Assembly: GCA_902576765.1 (NCBI GenBank)
Contig: CACGWH010000005.1
Location: 1 to 64,000, forward strand
Origin: an uncultured Pelagibacteraceae bacterium
Lineage (GTDB): Bacteria; Pseudomonadota; Alphaproteobacteria; Pelagibacterales; Pelagibacteraceae
Direction of reading: 5' to 3'
Length of the DNA: 64,000 nucleotides
The notes below the pieces were generated by a model. It saw only the letters and a program-made list of their open reading frames with translations, did not search any database and had not been told where the DNA came from. Below, one piece after another: positions 1 through 18,648 of the stretch. The position numbers and the translations under genes were made by a program. Position 1 is the first letter of the stretch. Every line of letters begins with the position of its first letter.

Positions 1-502
1 CCCACTTGTTTACTAAAGAACTTAAATCAAGTGTTGTTTGTGTAACAAAATCTTTATAAATAGTTTTATATGCTGGTCCTAATTTAATTCCACCATAAGT
101 ATTAAAAGATAAAATATTTTTCTTTGATAAACTTATAATTTTTCTTCTTACAGTTTCCCTAGGAAGCTGTAATACTTCTGCAATACTAGCAAAAGTTAAT
201 TTACGTTTATTCAAATAGTTTTTTTCTGTAATTTTTTCCATTTGTTCTTCTAAATCTGAAAAAGATTTTGTTCCTAACTTATTTGTTTCATACAATGAAT
301 GACTTACTACAACTTGTAAAATTACAAATGATTCAAAATCTATATTTAATTTTTCTTTAACTCTCGTATACAACGAAAGTATAAACATTACCCAATGATA
401 TAATCCTTTAGAGAATACAGGTTCTTTAGCACCCCTGTCTTTGACTATTTCCTCTAAAGAAACAATCTTATTAGCACCCATTATAGTTTTTTCATTACTC
501 AT
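1..502 (-). CDS. Helix-turn-helix regulator, partial (C-terminus beyond left edge)
   Basis: An open frame of 167 codons starts at an ATG at 502 and runs off the left edge. Residues about 103-135 read LTFASIAEVLQLPRETVRR followed by a basic helix, which looks like a helix-turn-helix of the Crp or MarR winged-helix kind. The first 100 residues are mostly helical and show no cyclic-nucleotide-type fold that I can recognise. It is divergent from the sulfatase-like gene at 606, and the 103 bases between them carry three palindromes, so autoregulation and control of the neighbour are likely (inference). The ligand and exact family are unknown; the DNA-binding role rests on the motif alone. Confidence 0.7.
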   Translation of the reverse strand, partial: MSNEKTIMGANKIVSLEEIVKDRGAKEPVFSKGLYHWVMFILSLYTRVKEKLNIDFESFVILQVVVSHSLYETNKLGTKSFSDLEEQMEKITEKNYLNKRKLTFASIAEVLQLPRETVRRKIISLSKKNILSFNTYGGIKLGPAYKTIYKDFVTQTTLDLSSLVNKW

Positions 503-518
503 ACTAGTTTATATTTTC

Positions 519-529
519 CCTATCATAGG
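519..529. promoter_or_regulatory. Palindrome CCTAT-C-ATAGG, candidate operator
   Basis: Perfect 5+5 inverted repeat with a one-base centre, 17 bases upstream of the regulator start. It shares the core TATCATA with the palindrome at 576-586, so the two look like copies of one protein-binding site. Function is inferred. Confidence 0.45.
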
Positions 530-538
530 TATATTACA

Positions 539-551
539 ACCTAAAATAGGT
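539..551. promoter_or_regulatory. Palindrome ACCTA-AAA-TAGGT, candidate operator
   Basis: Perfect 5+5 inverted repeat with a three-base AAA centre, lying between the other two palindromes of this divergent promoter region. Its half site TAGGT matches the right half of the first palindrome (ATAGGT). Function is inferred. Confidence 0.4.
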
Positions 552-575
552 ATGATCAATCTTTATCCTTATTTA

Positions 576-586
576 CTTATCATAAG
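576..586. promoter_or_regulatory. Palindrome CTTAT-C-ATAAG, candidate operator
   Basis: Perfect 5+5 inverted repeat with a one-base centre, 20 bases before the ATG of the sulfatase-like gene, so a bound regulator could block its transcription start. Same core as the palindrome at 519-529. Function is inferred. Confidence 0.45.
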
Positions 587-605
587 ATAGTTTATTTAAA
601 TCATT

Positions 606-2057
606 ATGAAACTTTGGCTTAAAAAATATTTAATTAGAGTATTGATAATAAATTTCTTTTCATTATTCTATTTAATTCAAACACCAGTTTTCGATACCGG
701 TTTTTTTTCAATTCAATCAATTTTTTATTCTATTAACATTTATTTATTATACCTTTTTATTTTTCTAGAAGCAAAATCATCTTTTCTTTCAATATACGGT
801 TTAGACTTCGGTTTTTACAAACTTATAATTAATAATTTAGGTAATCTTAACTTTAAATATATATTTTACATTGCCTTTCAAAATATAAATATTTTCTATT
901 TTTTATTTTTCTCTTTAGGTACCTTACTTTTTATTGAAAAAATAAATTATAATTTTGTATTTAAAAAAGATTTATTTAATCCCAGAAAAAAATTTTTCTC
1001 TTCAATCCTTGTTATTATTTTTATCTTAACTTGTTTCAATCCGAGTAATACTCATTTGACTTTGATAGAAAGATATAAACACTTAACTAACTCATGGACT
1101 CCAAATGATTTAATTTTGAATGAAGTCAAATATATTTCACAGTATATTAAAAATGATTTTTTTAGAAACGATAACTGGTTTAATACAATTAAATATACTT
1201 ATTTATATTTTGATAGTCATCCTTCTGGTGAGAGAAAACTTTCACAATTTGATAAAAATTTAGAATTCAAAAGTTTTAGGAATTTTAGTGGAATAATAAC
1301 TAAAAGTGATTATGACAGTATTTATGTAATCATAAATGAGTCTTACCCTAATTTTAGAAATAAAAAACTTAAAGAAAACTTATTAGAAAAAATTAAAATA
1401 GGAAATGATGATTTAATAATTCAAAATTTTAAAAAAAAATGGAATAGATCCTTAACAACTCAAGGAGCTGAAATGGAATTTTTCTGTAACAAAGATGTTA
1501 ATTTTGAAAAATATATTGTCAGTGAATTAAAATATTTTATTGAAAAAAATAATTGTTGGATTAATTCAATGAAAGATAAAAACTTAATTTATATACACAG
1601 CTATGAAGAATCTTTTTTTAACAGATCTAGATATAAAAGTTTTTTTAATAAAACATTTTTCAAAAAAGAATTAAGTGATTTAAATTTTAAAATTTGTAAT
1701 CAAAAGTATAGTGGAATATGTGATCATACAATCTTAGATAATTTAGATAAAATCATTAAAGATAAAAAAAATAATTTTATTATTTTCTTAACAGTAAATA
1801 ATCATATTCCAGTAGAACCCGTTTACAATATTTCATACATAGATTGTAAAAAGAATTTTCCATTAAATATCAGTGAACAATTTTGTAAAATTTATAACAA
1901 CCAAATGTTATTTAATGAGAGTATTTCAAAATTTATTAAAAATATGAATAAAAATGATTTGTTAGTTTTATTTTCAGACACACCACCTATGTTTAATTCT
2001 AAAAGAAGGGTTCATTTCGAAGATTTAATCGATGTTTACTTTTTTTCTAAAAAATAA
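606..2057 (+). CDS. Membrane-anchored sulfatase-fold (alkaline phosphatase superfamily) protein
   Basis: A protein of 483 residues with four N-terminal hydrophobic stretches (about 10-30, 36-55, 85-110, 131-146) followed by an extracytoplasmic domain. The domain resembles LTA-synthase/phosphoglycerol-transferase sulfatases: Glu245 in IYVIINESYPN, a Thr-Thr pair at 284-285 in SLTTQGAE (candidate nucleophile), His400 in TVNNHIPVE and Asp458 in FSDTPP. The family usually has Asp-His in the last motif; here Thr follows the Asp. Several cysteines (294, 317, 364, 372, 414, 427) could form disulfides. Such enzymes modify envelope glycans or lipids with phosphoglycerol or phosphoethanolamine; the substrate here is unknown. 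Divergent from the regulator at 1-502 and probably controlled by it. Confidence 0.7.
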   Translation: MKLWLKKYLIRVLIINFFSLFYLIQTPVFDTGFFSIQSIFYSINIYLLYLFIFLEAKSSFLSIYGLDFGFYKLIINNLGNLNFKYIFYIAFQNINIFYFLFFSLGTLLFIEKINYNFVFKKDLFNPRKKFFSSILVIIFILTCFNPSNTHLTLIERYKHLTNSWTPNDLILNEVKYISQYIKNDFFRNDNWFNTIKYTYLYFDSHPSGERKLSQFDKNLEFKSFRNFSGIITKSDYDSIYVIINESYPNFRNKKLKENLLEKIKIGNDDLIIQNFKKKWNRSLTTQGAEMEFFCNKDVNFEKYIVSELKYFIEKNNCWINSMKDKNLIYIHSYEESFFNRSRYKSFFNKTFFKKELSDLNFKICNQKYSGICDHTILDNLDKIIKDKKNNFIIFLTVNNHIPVEPVYNISYIDCKKNFPLNISEQFCKIYNNQMLFNESISKFIKNMNKNDLLVLFSDTPPMFNSKRRVHFEDLIDVYFFSKK

Positions 2058-7700: not shown

Positions 7701-9552
7701 AATCAGGGCTGTTTGCGTCTCCCCCTGGACAAGATCCAGCTACAGCCATTGCATCAAAAATTTCCATTCCTCTAGCATTAATACCTCCGCCATAAGCAAC
7801 AAATAAAGTTTTAACTGGATTTGTTTTATCTCTTAAAGCCGCAATTCTAGGAATAGCAGAAGCATTGTTTCTCATCATTCCATCACCAATTACAATAACA
7901 TAATTTAATTGACACTCTGAGTTCTCATCGTAAGCCTCAAAATCATTATTAAAATAATCAAGAGCCATAATAGAGTATGCGTTCGCGTCAGTACCCCAAG
8001 CTAAACCCTGAGGAATTAGATTGTCTAGAATTCTTGTGTACCCTTCAGCACTTATCCCTACATTCAAACATGAGTCTCTGTTACATTGTACCGATTGTCC
8101 GTCTGGATGATCACCATTCCATCCACCATAGTAAGTGCAACCATCATTAAAATGACAGAATCTTCCACCTCTAGGTCCTGTTCTTCGTCCACCTGTTTCT
8201 CCAGCATTCCAGTGTCCATAACCAAAGTGAGCACCACTGGTCAAAGTTGTGTCACTTATAATTGCACTCATTGCTTTTTTAACACCAACCCATCTTGATA
8301 CGACTCCACCACCCATTTGTAGAAGCCAAGAAGTATCTCTATTTTCTGCAGTAAATAAATTTTCATTGAAAACATCTATGGTTCCTCTTGTTGTTCCAAC
8401 TAAAATTCTATCCGATGTTACATGAATACCAATTGGTTGGTTAAATCTAACGTTGTTAGCTGAAAGAGCTCCAGAAGCTTCAATATTTGCTCCATTATTT
8501 CGTCTTCCAGTCCCTGCTCTTGCTAATATTGTATAAGTTGTATTTGTATCAAGCCGAACTTTTTGAATTACATGTCTTCTTGTTGAAGTTATATATAAAA
8601 TATCATCATCATCAGGTGAAACATCGATACCTATTACGTCTGCTAATTGTGTATCTAAATTTCCACGATTTACTCTAGTATAAAGTCTGGTGGCCGCATT
8701 GTTAGTAATTCGATATGCGTCGCCACTTTTTTCCATGGTATACCCGAATATATGAACTCGGCCTAAATATAACATTGAGGCATCACTGTTAACTGCAATT
8801 CTCCAAGTAAGTCTACCCATACGTGCAAATGAATTATTGGCATTCCCTCCAAATACCTGCACACCACTGCTGTTACCTGTATTTAAATTAAATGATACAA
8901 AGGCAGATTGATTTCCAGCTCTACCAGTAACAAATAGAAAATGTTCACCATCAATTAATTGAAGATCCATTCCTTGAATTGTAAGTCCAAGCTCTAAGTA
9001 CATCAGACAATCCTGTCCGTCCTCAGAATATCCAACAATTGCTTGATCATCTCTTAGTTGACGTTCATTAGACCTGAAAAAAATTATGTCTCGATTAGTA
9101 AATACTCCATTGTCAGTACTTAATTCTGTTGCAAATCTAATATCCGCAGTATGTCGAGCAACTGTATTTTTAGTTATTTCACCGTTATAACCCATTCCTG
9201 TAGATGACAGGGTACATGTGTCTGATGCATTACCAGTGTATCTTCCAACATTGTCATTAAATTCCCTGTTTCTAGATCCATCAGAATTAAATTTTACTAT
9301 TCCATTATTTCTAAACTGCGCTGCAAGAATATCTCCATTTGAATCGTAAATTGCGTTAGGAACATATTGAATGGCATCTCTATTACTCATTCTTCGTCTC
9401 ATACTTGCTGAACTATCAATTAATATCAAAATGTTAGCAGGAACATCTCCCTCTCCTGAACCAGGAGGAACTGGTTTTGCATCAACTTTAGATACAAAAG
9501 CAATTTCTAGTAAAATGAATAAGAATAGAAAATATTTTGCAAAATGTTTCAT
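4777..9552 (-). CDS. pilY1: PilY1-like type IV pilus tip adhesin with VWA domain
   Basis: A protein of 1591 residues, the largest gene here. A signal peptide (1-25, ending VDA) leads to the start of a von Willebrand A domain with the metal-site motif Asp46-x-Ser48-x-Ser50 in ILILIDSSASM. About 370 residues resembling NHL-type propeller blades (for example IGIDVSPDDDDILYITS) follow, before the VWA part appears to resume near SRWVGVKKAMSAII. The C-terminal half carries the PilY beta-propeller (NVIYAGANSGVLHAIN, FVPYGRGGAGFSVLDV). PilY1 proteins prime pilus assembly, bind surfaces and regulate retraction through calcium. It ends the operon pilT-pilin-pilV-pilW-pilX-orf-pilY1. The size is at the upper end for the family. 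Confidence 0.88.
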   Translation of the reverse strand: MKHFAKYFLFLFILLEIAFVSKVDAKPVPPGSGEGDVPANILILIDSSASMRRRMSNRDAIQYVPNAIYDSNGDILAAQFRNNGIVKFNSDGSRNREFNDNVGRYTGNASDTCTLSSTGMGYNGEITKNTVARHTADIRFATELSTDNGVFTNRDIIFFRSNERQLRDDQAIVGYSEDGQDCLMYLELGLTIQGMDLQLIDGEHFLFVTGRAGNQSAFVSFNLNTGNSSGVQVFGGNANNSFARMGRLTWRIAVNSDASMLYLGRVHIFGYTMEKSGDAYRITNNAATRLYTRVNRGNLDTQLADVIGIDVSPDDDDILYITSTRRHVIQKVRLDTNTTYTILARAGTGRRNNGANIEASGALSANNVRFNQPIGIHVTSDRILVGTTRGTIDVFNENLFTAENRDTSWLLQMGGGVVSRWVGVKKAMSAIISDTTLTSGAHFGYGHWNAGETGGRRTGPRGGRFCHFNDGCTYYGGWNGDHPDGQSVQCNRDSCLNVGISAEGYTRILDNLIPQGLAWGTDANAYSIMALDYFNNDFEAYDENSECQLNYVIVIGDGMMRNNASAIPRIAALRDKTNPVKTLFVAYGGGINARGMEIFDAMAVAGSCPGGDANSPDCEPTIVADTPESLKTQLTAKIRQILAERLSFTAPSITATVQEGGSLYQAQFAYEQFGEWQGTILRKTLNADGTVIHEMDSPGNWDASVEIRKQATPADAADTRNLWSAIPGSPYIGNWDNFNTDNSDDITELFELFGFNIADYHNATSYCASNGYVGDNGTSDDLLGLINFMKGTDYFDYDGDCDVTEVRSHVLGDIYHSQLIEVGPPDASIDFTGANEEAYYRATNNYQSFMQKHASRRNVIYAGANSGVLHAINAETGAEEWGFIPPFIAGLLPSLMNADLSGKIDSKKGGTNAIFGVDGSPVVHDVLIKGINAQGELEDQKSWHTILFVPYGRGGAGFSVLDVTNPILKDNLGPIHMFSVYNDAINSTVYMADHEGTITTYPYSSGSVSIQDSLEAIKAGENLDTAFTADGGDDSLDPDHSSYCDSADDPDVIQNCTNQDAIAVCQLNDTDVMTTTGLFHSDAAGTASCFKGTEFRFSDLKPQASADGTVPKSSLKVTERVDGTLQTIDFTSAKYENDNLVITFPTEKTYNAGGSPLETSLTNQFTVATSCTAATDIPVQYDYSQLGETWSAPRIFRIPSETIAYRNNPSKDRYVAVMGAGMGATNLCAGSAVFLVNLDRDDQEGIEPGTIFGATTNGGPITIVDTVPTSAAGEQTPNGSDIGNSLPASAVVITPDTAFNIPWRGAMVYFNDLEGKITKLNLTSSTKNEAELFDQTTLFRLDANTINKRYSYFSMDAGIGQTTRDFWLFGGTGNFNDIGGGSRFMDNILYGVKDPDYPYFDHLNGAHVPRESEDTFLAQAHKGANNAASIDNAVVCKDTTGKISCEDGPTSGQQAWVVHLDTPDGKGPNENSNNSFRKLSAAPTLFKGQVYFPIYEPPQGANPCNIGNAFICVADDECGSNNSHLLSRGSAANGKACQFVREGILSELVIFGDKLFANVAGPKEDAETLYSVLAAAGEVTIDKSNWRESGF

Positions 9553-14465: not shown

Positions 14466-16256
14466 ATGAATAGAATAAAGATTATTCTAATTAATCTGTT
14501 GTTGTTAACATATATTAGCATCTCATATGCTGCTGATGTAGATGAGGATACAACCTTCTCAACAACTGCAACAGCTCAACAAGTAGTTACTGAAAATGAT
14601 GTTGATATTATCATAACCAATAATGCTTCCATAACTAGAACTGGTCAAAAAGCAATTAAAAATACTGACGATGAAGTAACAGGTACTACCATTACAATAC
14701 ACTCTGGTTCATCTGTAACATCTACAGGTAATAATACTATTTCAACTGAGGGAGGTGAATTAACAATAACTAACTCGGGAACAATTCAAGCTTTAGGTGC
14801 TAGTGGTGCTAACTCAAAAGCAATTAATATTAGCAACTCTGATGGAGGAGTAACAATTACAAACAACAGCGGTGGAATAATCGCATCTCCTGGAAACACT
14901 ATTCTTGGAAATGCAGGCACTGGTGGAGATAACACAACAATTGAAAATAGTGGTCAAATAACATCAACCAATACTTCTTCTTCAAGTAGTGCAATAATTT
15001 ACAAGGACAATGATACTGGTAATACTATTACAAATAATGCAGGGGGAGAAATAACCAGTAAAGGTACTAAATCAACTATAATAGTTGGTGCAAGCTCTAC
15101 AATAACTAACAGTGGAACAATAAAAAATAATAAATCTGTTAGTAAAAATGCGATCCAACTTAAAGGAGATAACAATACAGTAACCTTAAAAGATGAGGGA
15201 ATAGTAGTAGGTATTATTAAAGCTGCAAATGGTACAACAGGAAATACATTAAAAATTAATCACGGAGTTGGAAAAAGTTATTATTATAATACAGGTGGTG
15301 ATTTTACTTTACAGGACTTAGACGGTAATCAAATTGTTAATGGATCTGCAGGTTCTGTTGGTCAAGGTGGGAGTGAAATTCTGGATGATGTACTGGGAAG
15401 AAAATCTTTAAACTTAAGACAATCGTTTGCAAGATACAAAAGCACAAAAGAAGATTTAGGTAAGCCACAAAGTTGGGGTGAAATTAATTTTTCTACATTT
15501 AAAAAAAAACAAAATAGTCAAAATTTATCTCTTGGTTTAAACTCTGCAGATTTATCAATTAATTTAATGTATCCTAATCAAGATAAAGATTTTATCTTAT
15601 CTTTAGGTACTGGAAGTCAAAAATTCACTAAAGATCATAGCATTAATAGATATTCTGTTCATTCAGGATTTCTTTTTAAAGATAACCCAATTTTAAATAT
15701 GTTCGGTGATGAAAGTTTTGTTTTAGGTGGAATTAATTTACAAACTAGTGAAAGAGAAATTTTAACTAACACAAGATCCTCTGGTAAATTAAGTATTGGA
15801 GACAATTATGAAACTTATGATCTTCTTGCTGGTACAAAGATAAATAATGATTTTTTAATTCCCAATATTGGGGCTACAGTTGGTTTATCTTATACACCTA
15901 GTCATAATGAAAGTGATTATTATAGTTGGGATAATAAAGGTGTTAGTAATTTATCTGTATACCTTGATGATAGCTATAAATTAAATTTAGGAAATAATTA
16001 TCAAATTAATTTAGGATGGATTGTCGATGTAAGAAAAATGGTTTTAGGTAAAGATCAAGATTATGAAATTAATGGCACAGCTGCAACTTTTTCACAAGAT
16101 GCTGATACAACACAAGAAGTAACTCTAGCAACCAACCTTGGTTTTGATAAAAAAATAACTGATGACCATTTTTTTAAGTTTAATTTAGATAGCACTATAA
16201 GCACACAAGAACTGACAAGTTTTACCGGAAATTTCGCATACAAATTTGCCTTTTGA
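14466..16256 (+). CDS. Autotransporter with beta-helix passenger
   Basis: A protein of 596 residues. A signal peptide (1-22, ending SYA) is followed by a Thr/Asn/Gly-rich passenger (about 24-300) made of degenerate repeats of the ITNSGTI / ITNNSGGII type, which form beta-helices in autotransporters. The C-terminal 280 residues alternate polar and hydrophobic residues as in an outer-membrane beta-barrel and end in Phe (AYKFAF), the usual barrel signature. It is probably displayed on the cell surface. It is divergent from pilT and followed by a second autotransporter 64 bases later. The ligand is unknown. Confidence 0.82.
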   Translation: MNRIKIILINLLLLTYISISYAADVDEDTTFSTTATAQQVVTENDVDIIITNNASITRTGQKAIKNTDDEVTGTTITIHSGSSVTSTGNNTISTEGGELTITNSGTIQALGASGANSKAINISNSDGGVTITNNSGGIIASPGNTILGNAGTGGDNTTIENSGQITSTNTSSSSSAIIYKDNDTGNTITNNAGGEITSKGTKSTIIVGASSTITNSGTIKNNKSVSKNAIQLKGDNNTVTLKDEGIVVGIIKAANGTTGNTLKINHGVGKSYYYNTGGDFTLQDLDGNQIVNGSAGSVGQGGSEILDDVLGRKSLNLRQSFARYKSTKEDLGKPQSWGEINFSTFKKKQNSQNLSLGLNSADLSINLMYPNQDKDFILSLGTGSQKFTKDHSINRYSVHSGFLFKDNPILNMFGDESFVLGGINLQTSEREILTNTRSSGKLSIGDNYETYDLLAGTKINNDFLIPNIGATVGLSYTPSHNESDYYSWDNKGVSNLSVYLDDSYKLNLGNNYQINLGWIVDVRKMVLGKDQDYEINGTAATFSQDADTTQEVTLATNLGFDKKITDDHFFKFNLDSTISTQELTSFTGNFAYKFAF

Positions 16257-16320
16257 CCAATAACCAATTTTGGGTACATTTGAGGATGAATTAGAAAAAG
16301 ATTCATGTAAAAAAACTCAA

Positions 16321-18648
16321 ATGTCTTTGATAAAAAAAATACTATTAATATTTTTTCTATTATTTCCTATATCCAAATCTTTTGGAGATATATATCGAGT
16401 AACTGAAGTCACTTTTAATCAAAAGCAAACAATTAACACTCAAGGTGATGAAGATGCAGGTACTCTATCTGATAATACTGATTTTGGACTTGCAGCTGGT
16501 ATAGAGTTCAACGCAGATGGAACTAAAATGTTTGTAAGTTTTGCCCAAACTGATCCTGATAGTAAAGATCTTACTCGAGTTATAAATACCTACGATTTAA
16601 GTACCCCATACGATGTTTCAACAGAAACTTTCGCTGGTGATAGTGAAAGGTGTGAATTTGAAGTTGATAGTGGAGATCACAGTCATCAAATATATGACTT
16701 AGAATTAAGTAGTGATGGAATGAAAATACTTTTAGTTACTAGAGTTAGACACTCTAGTGCAGATCACGATAAGGCTTATGTATTAGATTTAACTACTGCT
16801 TATGATATCTCTACTTGTAGTAGAAGTTCAGCAACTACAGATATCGACAGTGATACTTTTACAAGTGGAAGTAATGCTGGGGAACATGACGGTACAACTG
16901 AACATATGCTTCAAGGTATAGAAGTTAATGAAGATGGGAGTAAGGTATTTTTACTTTTTAATAATCGAAATTGTAATAGTGGCGAGGCTGGTGCAAGATT
17001 GTATGAGTATACACTTTCAACCCCATATGACTTAACTACGATGTCTCTTGTACTTAATGCAGGTATAAGATTTGATTGTCTTGAAACAGGTGGTGTAAAA
17101 AATGGTGCTGCAATGAGATTTAGCCCAAACGGGAAAAGACTGTTTATCACAAATCATGATACACAACAGAGAGGTGTTACTCAAATTTCACTAGCAATTG
17201 CTTATGATACATCTTCATTTAAAATGGATGGCAGAGTGGTTCTTGGTGGAGCATTTGATAATATGTCTGATGGTAATGATCAACCAAGAGGAATTGCATT
17301 TAATTCAAATGGCTTAAAAATGTATTTAACCAGTGATCGAACCCAAGGCAGTAAAGATGAGATATACGAATACGATTTGAATTGTCCATTTAATATAATT
17401 GAGGGAAATTGCTCTTTTACAACTAATAATTCTGATCGGACTGCAATAATTGAAGCTCAAATAGAAATTGCTAAAAAAACTATAGATCATTCAACTGATA
17501 CAGCTCTTAATAGACTTAAGTGGATTAGAAGAAATAAAGACAAACAGAATTTAACCAACTTAAATTTGAATATTAATTTTACTAATCAAAAATTAGCTTC
17601 ATTAACTGAAGTTGTTAGAACTTCTGCTGCTAAGAATAAATCAAAAGATAAAGATAAAGAAGAAGACCTTTTTTATTGGAGTGAAGGAAGTTTAGCAGTT
17701 GGAAGAATTGGCGATACCAGTATTTCATCTACAAAAAAAATTGGAACTGATGCTATTACTTTTGGTGTAGATAAATTTGTTAAAAATAATGAAATAAAAG
17801 GTCTAGCATTTAGAGTAGGGAGAAATAATGTTGATGTCGGAAGTGCTGGAAGTAATTTAGACACAGACACTTATAATATTACTTATTATGCTACCTCTCC
17901 TATAAAAGATGATACAAAATTTGTAGATACAATAGTTGGATTTGGAAAAATTCGGTCAAAATATTTAACTATTGCCAATAAAATTAGTCATACAGCAAAT
18001 AGAACTGGTCAACAGATTTATTTCACCCGTAAAATTAAAGATGAAATAAAAAAAAATAATTTTACATTAATTCCATCAGGACAGTTTGATTTTGGTCAAA
18101 CAATATTAAATGGTTATTCAGAAACAGGATTAACAGGAATAACTTTTGAAAAACAACATGTAAGGACGAGAAATTTAAGGGGCGCAATTGCTATAGTTGA
18201 AGATCTATCAAATGAAAATATTTCTTTTAAAAGACATGGAAAACTTGAATACTCTGCTGACCTTTCACGATCCTCAAATTTAGAATATAGATATAATTCT
18301 GGTAGCGATACAATTCATACAACTTTACACTCAGGTTCAATTCACAATTTAAAAGGTGAGATTGGTATTGATATAATTCTACCTAATAACTTTAGTGTAT
18401 TCTTTATTTATGAACGTAATCAAGCCCTAAACGTTGGACACACCGATAAAATTCATATTGCTATTGGATATTTACCTAACAAAGAGACAAATTATGTATT
18501 TTCAATAGATGGGTCTGATGAATTTAAATCAAATTATGTATTAAGTAAAAATATAAATGATTACTTAATTGATTTTAAATTAACAAATGATCTGATGACC
18601 CCGACAGACTATGATGAGGCCTCTTTTAATCTTATTCGAAAGTTTTAA
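16321..18648 (+). CDS. Autotransporter with propeller-like repeats and C-terminal barrel
   Basis: I choose the ATG at 16321 because it gives a signal peptide (MSLIKKILLIFFLLFPISKSFG); a TTG at 16270 would add 17 polar residues. The mature part has five or six degenerate propeller-type blades, each with a pattern like FNADGTKMFVS followed by YDLSTPYD. A Lys-rich helical linker (about 385-455) follows, then a barrel domain starting YWSEGSLAVGRIGDTSIS and ending in Phe. This barrel type is familiar from SAR11 surface proteins. The passenger differs from its neighbour's, so the two are not recent duplicates. It abuts the convergent gene at 18649 with no gap. Confidence 0.8.
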   Translation: MSLIKKILLIFFLLFPISKSFGDIYRVTEVTFNQKQTINTQGDEDAGTLSDNTDFGLAAGIEFNADGTKMFVSFAQTDPDSKDLTRVINTYDLSTPYDVSTETFAGDSERCEFEVDSGDHSHQIYDLELSSDGMKILLVTRVRHSSADHDKAYVLDLTTAYDISTCSRSSATTDIDSDTFTSGSNAGEHDGTTEHMLQGIEVNEDGSKVFLLFNNRNCNSGEAGARLYEYTLSTPYDLTTMSLVLNAGIRFDCLETGGVKNGAAMRFSPNGKRLFITNHDTQQRGVTQISLAIAYDTSSFKMDGRVVLGGAFDNMSDGNDQPRGIAFNSNGLKMYLTSDRTQGSKDEIYEYDLNCPFNIIEGNCSFTTNNSDRTAIIEAQIEIAKKTIDHSTDTALNRLKWIRRNKDKQNLTNLNLNINFTNQKLASLTEVVRTSAAKNKSKDKDKEEDLFYWSEGSLAVGRIGDTSISSTKKIGTDAITFGVDKFVKNNEIKGLAFRVGRNNVDVGSAGSNLDTDTYNITYYATSPIKDDTKFVDTIVGFGKIRSKYLTIANKISHTANRTGQQIYFTRKIKDEIKKNNFTLIPSGQFDFGQTILNGYSETGLTGITFEKQHVRTRNLRGAIAIVEDLSNENISFKRHGKLEYSADLSRSSNLEYRYNSGSDTIHTTLHSGSIHNLKGEIGIDIILPNNFSVFFIYERNQALNVGHTDKIHIAIGYLPNKETNYVFSIDGSDEFKSNYVLSKNINDYLIDFKLTNDLMTPTDYDEASFNLIRKF

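Follow-up and report, generated by a model that had tools for sequence, protein, structure and literature searches.

The intergenic gap and its palindromes

The stretch of DNA analyzed here (the window) comprises 64,000 nucleotides of a contig from an uncultured Pelagibacteraceae bacterium, and the contig starts at window position 1. A minus-strand gene for a putative winged-helix regulator runs from position 502 to the contig edge, and a gene for a membrane-anchored enzyme begins on the opposite strand at position 606. Three palindromes lie in the gap between them, at the positions reported for them in an earlier note on this sequence.

2-502, minus strand: regulator gene (winged-helix), 167 codons visible
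503-605: gap of 103 bp
519-529: palindrome 1, CCTATCATAGG
539-551: palindrome 2, ACCTAAAATAGGT
576-586, plus strand: palindrome 3, CTTATCATAAG; outside the system described below, chance-level count, unconserved in relatives
606-2057, plus strand: membrane-anchored sulfatase-like/phosphoglycerol-transferase-like gene, 483 aa; exchangeable neighbor

The regulator is ~181 aa long in relatives, and the window copy is cut by the contig edge. Searches against Pfam and NCBIfam returned no family model at its curated cut-off, with helix-turn-helix models matching weakly. An AlphaFold model placed a winged helix at residues 104-155, in a block with pLDDT mostly 73-87 within a model of low overall confidence (mean pLDDT 57). 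The best sequence match among solved structures was the winged helix of TtgV (E = 5e-4, residues 101-172). A fold search using the same low-confidence model also ranked TtgV first, without significance and with no match below E = 0.001. Chains carrying two copies of the regulator domain were observed in many SAR11 genomes (region matches L022-L031, ORFs of 322-349 aa, for example in G101 and G146). A viral link was rejected because no relatives were found in viral contigs.

The motif CCTANNNTAGG is present in two copies in the 64-kb window, both within the gap, compared with 0.40 expected, and at least two copies were obtained in 3 of 100 shuffles. The single copy of CTTATNATAAG (0.17 expected) was matched by 17 of 100 shuffles, and the third palindrome is therefore unremarkable. 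This third palindrome is also gone in a sibling with 96% identity, which carries CTTATATTGAT, and in all other aligned relatives. Its left arm, common to the gaps on the sulfatase side, is perhaps the -10 region of that gene.

Operator array and putative promoter of the regulator gene

Orthologues of the regulator were gathered by whole-genome searches and from named SAR11 single-cell genomes (uncultured Pelagibacteraceae). An alignment at the start codon of 19 SAR11 orthologues with ~64-96% protein identity, which are kin and hence non-independent sequences, showed the block between -62 and the start codon to be conserved (1.51 bits), next to an unconserved stretch from -100 to -63 (0.71 bits). 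Four copies of ACCTANNNTAGGT were identified in these orthologues with an exact period of 21 bp, at -49, -28, -7, and +14 relative to the start codon. We refer to these sites as O1 to O4, listed here together with the promoter elements.

554-559, minus strand: -35 hexamer TTGATC of the putative promoter; TTGAT invariant in the 19 orthologues
539-551, minus strand: O1, ACCTATTTTAGGT; within the 17-bp promoter spacer, at -49 in the 19 orthologues, mean matrix score 15.8
531-536, minus strand: -10 hexamer TAATAT, 17 bp from the -35; T-A-N-N-N-T invariant in the 19 orthologues
518-530, minus strand: O2, ACCTATGATAGGG; adjoins the -10 and covers the expected transcription start, conserved at -28
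497-509, minus strand: O3 (degenerate), AACTAGTATGAGT; contains the regulator start codon, on the exact 21-bp period
476-488, minus strand: O4, AACTATAATGGGT; codons 5-9 of the regulator, mean score 8.3, on the exact 21-bp period

The palindromes at 519-529 and 539-551 are the strongest half of this array. O1 is nearly invariant across the 19 orthologues, and O2, which reads ACCTANNNTAGGG in the alignment, keeps its arms and leaves its center free (1.65 bits in the arms versus 0.40 bits in the central three bases). With O1 and O2 alone as training sites, a symmetric matrix was built and scanned over the 19 orthologues from -200 to +280 (~480 positions). Beyond the training positions, a positive mean score was found only at -77 and at two positions that fit the 21-bp grid, -7 and +14. 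O3 was thus picked up by a matrix that had not been trained on it, and its arms reach 2.00 bits; the codons that make up O4 fall in a tail left disordered by the AlphaFold model.

Footprinting of the gap in SAR11 relatives thus bears out the earlier suggestion of regulatory sites for the first two palindromes, which are kept at fixed distances from the start codon, and withdraws it for the one at 576-586, which is lost. The earlier list of sites also lacked O3 and O4, the weaker copies in the same period. In addition, the note had singled out the 57 bp between two TATCATA centers (524 and 581) as a distance that may allow looping or cooperative binding. The meaningful spacing is instead the 21 bp between the first two palindromes, and looping loses its second site in the 96% sibling and in every other aligned relative.

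The putative promoter consists of TTGAT(T/C) at -57 to -52 and TANNNT at -34 to -29, separated by 17 bp and invariant or nearly so in the alignment. The window hexamers show a modest 8 of 12 match to a sigma-70-like consensus and stayed below the threshold of a promoter scanner, which did not pick them, and we therefore infer the promoter from its conservation. O1 lies wholly in the spacer and O2 begins one base past the -10, so that the sites overlap both the regulator's own putative promoter and the expected transcription start. Given this promoter, the layout of O1 and O2 is that of a presumptive autorepressor acting by occlusion. In MerR-type promoters, the operator is located in an over-long spacer of 19-20 bp; a MerR-type activator was rejected here because the 17-bp spacer is too short.

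Orthologues with 45-50% identity retain arrays at 20-21 bp, and the spacing is 20-22 bp in more distant relatives. Two operons from another genus, in which the regulator is joined to an MFS gene (L006 and L007), contain three copies at 20 bp. In one locus (L089, -91 to +14), the 21-bp unit AACTATAATGAGTGAAAAGAA has expanded to six units in register, and this unit contains a start codon, resulting in MSEKKTI codons repeated in frame. In a more distant group (L074 and L075), the start codon seems to be located in the following unit of the array.

The pilus operon as a second candidate target

The regulator gene sits within a type IV pilus locus. On one side are pilD, a PilY1-like gene (a name inferred for it), a gene for a GAF/SpoIIE phosphatase, and a small gene; on the other side are pilMN-O-P and the secretin gene. 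A single site matching the array motif, with variants such as ACCTATAATGAGC, ACCTAATTTGAGC, and ACCCATTTTAGGT, was found ~100 bp before pilMNOPQ in each of an initial 16 loci with the regulator and also in the genome of the window, amounting to 17 distinct genomes. In the window's genome (G000, contig C19), the site reads ACCTATAATGAGC and is placed at -98 of pilMN. The pilMN site is weaker in most genomes, with 8.5-11.5 bits versus 15-17. In one sample of pilus genomes, a score of at least 8.5, a threshold set after seeing the data, was reached in all 5 that carry the regulator and in 2 of the 11 that lack it (Fisher p = 0.005; G149, whose contig ends just upstream, was left out and loci of the shorter pilMN class were uncounted). 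The site is degraded in most pilus-bearing genomes without the regulator. Two regulator-less loci (L138 and L145, from G185 and G187) harbor a variant palindrome, GACCTAAAATGGTC, at about -102 of pilMN, which may be used by another protein. The pilMN site and the -35 region of a promoter overlap; as the -10 of this promoter is good and its -35 poor, the site could serve in activation of pilMN.

A second, different array of TGTGTTAGA(G) repeats at 21-22 bp on both strands occupies the ~500-bp gap before pilMN (L098 9930-10264; L036 13431-13777; G000 contig C19, L131). Each of the 15 pilus genomes tested that carry the regulator contains pairs of TGTGTTAGA, as does the regulator-less G051; among the other 12 genomes tested, only G026 had them, as a single pair.

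Together, the fixed sites at -49 and -28, the 21-bp grid, their near-exclusive occurrence, and the association of the regulator with the pilMN site suggest that the regulator gene has its own promoter and operator in the gap. We consider it probable, at roughly three in four, that a winged-helix autorepressor binds this array in its own promoter and controls the pilMNOPQ operon. The small protein would bind as a dimer to the ACCTANNNTAGGT palindromes. Since 21 bp corresponds to two helical turns, dimers on the four sites would be positioned side by side on one face of the DNA. Filling of O1 in the spacer and O2 at the transcription start would shut off the regulator's own promoter, and the weaker O3 and O4, over the start codon and the coding sequence, would extend the complex. 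The same protein would occupy the single site ~100 bp upstream of pilMNOPQ, and expression of the pilus operon, like that of the downstream cargo gene cotranscribed with the regulator, would thereby depend on the state of the regulator. Binding, dimerization, and self-repression by this regulator, the sign of its effect on pilMN, and any inducer are what we infer here. The earlier idea that the adjacent regulator binds the sites is likely to be right.

A bolder extension, which we hold to be possible though unlikely, is an uncharacterized SAR11 winged-helix family that forms cooperative filaments on a 21-bp array, from the promoter across the start codon into the first codons of its own gene, and that switches type IV pili, exchangeable cargo genes, and, where present, a divergent adhesin between two states.

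Binding of the sites by a different, global SAR11 regulator, with the adjacent protein having another job, is conceivable, the adjacent protein being a presumed binder. However, among 397 genomes of the order, the double site was found in 12, eight times at the regulator promoter and four times elsewhere, and a reversed control pattern also matched four genomes, the same number as the double sites elsewhere; the paired site is essentially confined to the front of this regulator gene. In addition, several distant paralogues of the regulator have single copies of the motif close to their start codons, and in G051, which has a pilus locus and no regulator, both regulator-type sites before pilMN are degraded and the neighboring TGTGTTAGA repeats are kept. 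A global regulator is thus improbable. A regulon of the adjacent regulator outside the pilus locus was rejected, as all other single CCTANNNTAGG sites inspected in the window genome (G000), G083, and G040 lie inside genes.

Exchangeable neighbors and related systems

The divergent enzyme matched a profile of the phosphoglycerol transferase GacH weakly (residues 318-461, E = 0.0028) and had no match in Pfam, including the alkaline-phosphatase-like catalytic domain, and its AlphaFold model (pLDDT 41) was unusable; a sulfatase fold is weakly suggested. This gene is one of several neighbors that the regulator can have. The divergent gene is sulfatase-like in the window and in L097, L098, L099, and L105, and an autotransporter gene in L036 and L101-L104; L107, L127, and L128 have no divergent gene. 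Behind the regulator, most loci contain an ATG22-type MFS gene, and others have a pirin gene or, as in the nearest relative of the window and three further relatives, a 79-aa ORF with a methyltransferase gene. An MFS transporter as the fixed partner was rejected on the basis of these replacements. Exchange resembling a cargo slot is seen directly behind the regulator in L097 (8550-9432), L120, L122, L123, L124, and L125.

Traces of exchange are visible on the divergent side as well. L104 and L105, whose sulfatase-like genes are ~98% identical, differ by an autotransporter cassette (region 7900-7960), the junction of which coincides with the outer edge of the conserved operator block. In L063 (1309-1397), only a 26-codon autotransporter remnant is left before the sulfatase-like gene. 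The position at -77 corresponds to an extra operator, O0, which is found in autotransporter loci and also in L067 and L070, two loci that lack a divergent gene. These two loci weaken O0 as a marker of autotransporter loci, and O0, found in 0 of 5 sulfatase loci, is better described as lost in the latter.

The operator array and the surrounding type IV pilus genes are constant across relatives while the divergent and downstream genes are swapped, which points to a regulator tied to the pilus locus and not to the enzyme next door. The sulfatase-like gene is an exchangeable passenger beside the regulator operator. The earlier note had proposed a self-contained regulator/sulfatase switch, in which looping between the two TATCATA palindromes controls the enzyme gene. 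The two genes do diverge across 103 bp with O1 and O2 upstream of the enzyme gene, and some effect on it is possible. However, the third palindrome is unconserved even in the 96% sibling, the regulator and its array persist where the sulfatase-like gene is replaced or missing, and it is exactly in the sulfatase loci that O0 is lacking. Moreover, most regulator loci do not contain the enzyme gene, which was found in only 4 of 147 family genomes, one of which (G134) carries it elsewhere, without a regulator orthologue. Such a switch is very unlikely.

Least credible of all is a coding or RNA constraint, in which the conserved bases would encode an N-terminal extension (frame LIVPILGC.LPTIGRIKT) or fold into an RNA hairpin. 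In many orthologues, no stop interrupts the reading frame between an upstream TTG and the ATG, and seven codons span 21 bp. A coding constraint was nevertheless rejected because in-frame stops occur in the window, L062, and L087 with O1 and O2 intact and because other relatives show periods of 20 or 22 bp. An RNA element was rejected because an Rfam search gave no match; O1 is in addition located upstream of the putative transcription start.

The putative autorepressor was compared with known regulator families. IclR-family proteins have an N-terminal winged helix and a C-terminal IclR effector domain in ~250 aa; the SAR11 regulator, in contrast, has ~181 aa with a C-terminal winged helix (104-155) and no Pfam IclR match, although the best sequence match of its winged helix is to a member of that family, TtgV. 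IclR-type regulators such as TtgV commonly bind tandem palindromes with centers 18-22 nt apart, about two turns, fitting binding by a tetramer (PMC8222616), and the exact 21-bp period of O1-O4 falls within this range. However, ACCTANNNTAGGT fits neither site consensus given for the family, GKTYCRYW3-4RYGRAMC or TGRAACAN1-2TGTTYCA (PMC8222616), and the SAR11 array differs in having four units that run over the start codon into the gene. With the effector domain and the site consensus both absent, the SAR11 regulator is not a member of the IclR family, although it would work like one.

MarR-type autorepressors such as MexR and MepR respond to small molecules and control transporter operons. The SAR11 regulator resembles them as a small winged-helix protein with sites over its own promoter and, often, a cotranscribed MFS transporter. 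It differs in having no MarR family match and a weak fold similarity (matches above E = 0.001 only, from a low-confidence model), and in that a methyltransferase or pirin gene can take the place of the transporter gene in its locus.

Tandem palindromes spaced by two turns thus have precedents among IclR-type regulators; new are the family of the protein, the continuation of the array into coding sequence, and the link to SAR11 pili. SAR11 bacteria rank with the most common bacteria of the ocean, and to our knowledge very few of their local regulators have been characterized. The first two palindromes of the gap, as the core of a putative four-unit autoregulatory operator of a pilus-locus regulator, provide a concrete candidate regulator, operator, and target (pilMNOPQ) for SAR11 type IV pili, and the regulator represents a family without a curated domain. 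The neighboring adhesin is a further candidate target.

A coast-associated autotransporter adhesin of SAR11 has been described as always located beside genes for type IV pili and/or type II secretion (PMC12636525). The autotransporter that several relatives encode divergently from the regulator probably corresponds to this adhesin, which the available portion of that report describes without mention of a regulator or operator. Unlike the adhesin locus, the window has the sulfatase-like gene at that place. Two further large, repeat-rich genes resembling surface-protein genes follow pilus-type genes at 14466-18648 of the window, and the first of them has a homologue inside the pilus loci of L120 and L122.
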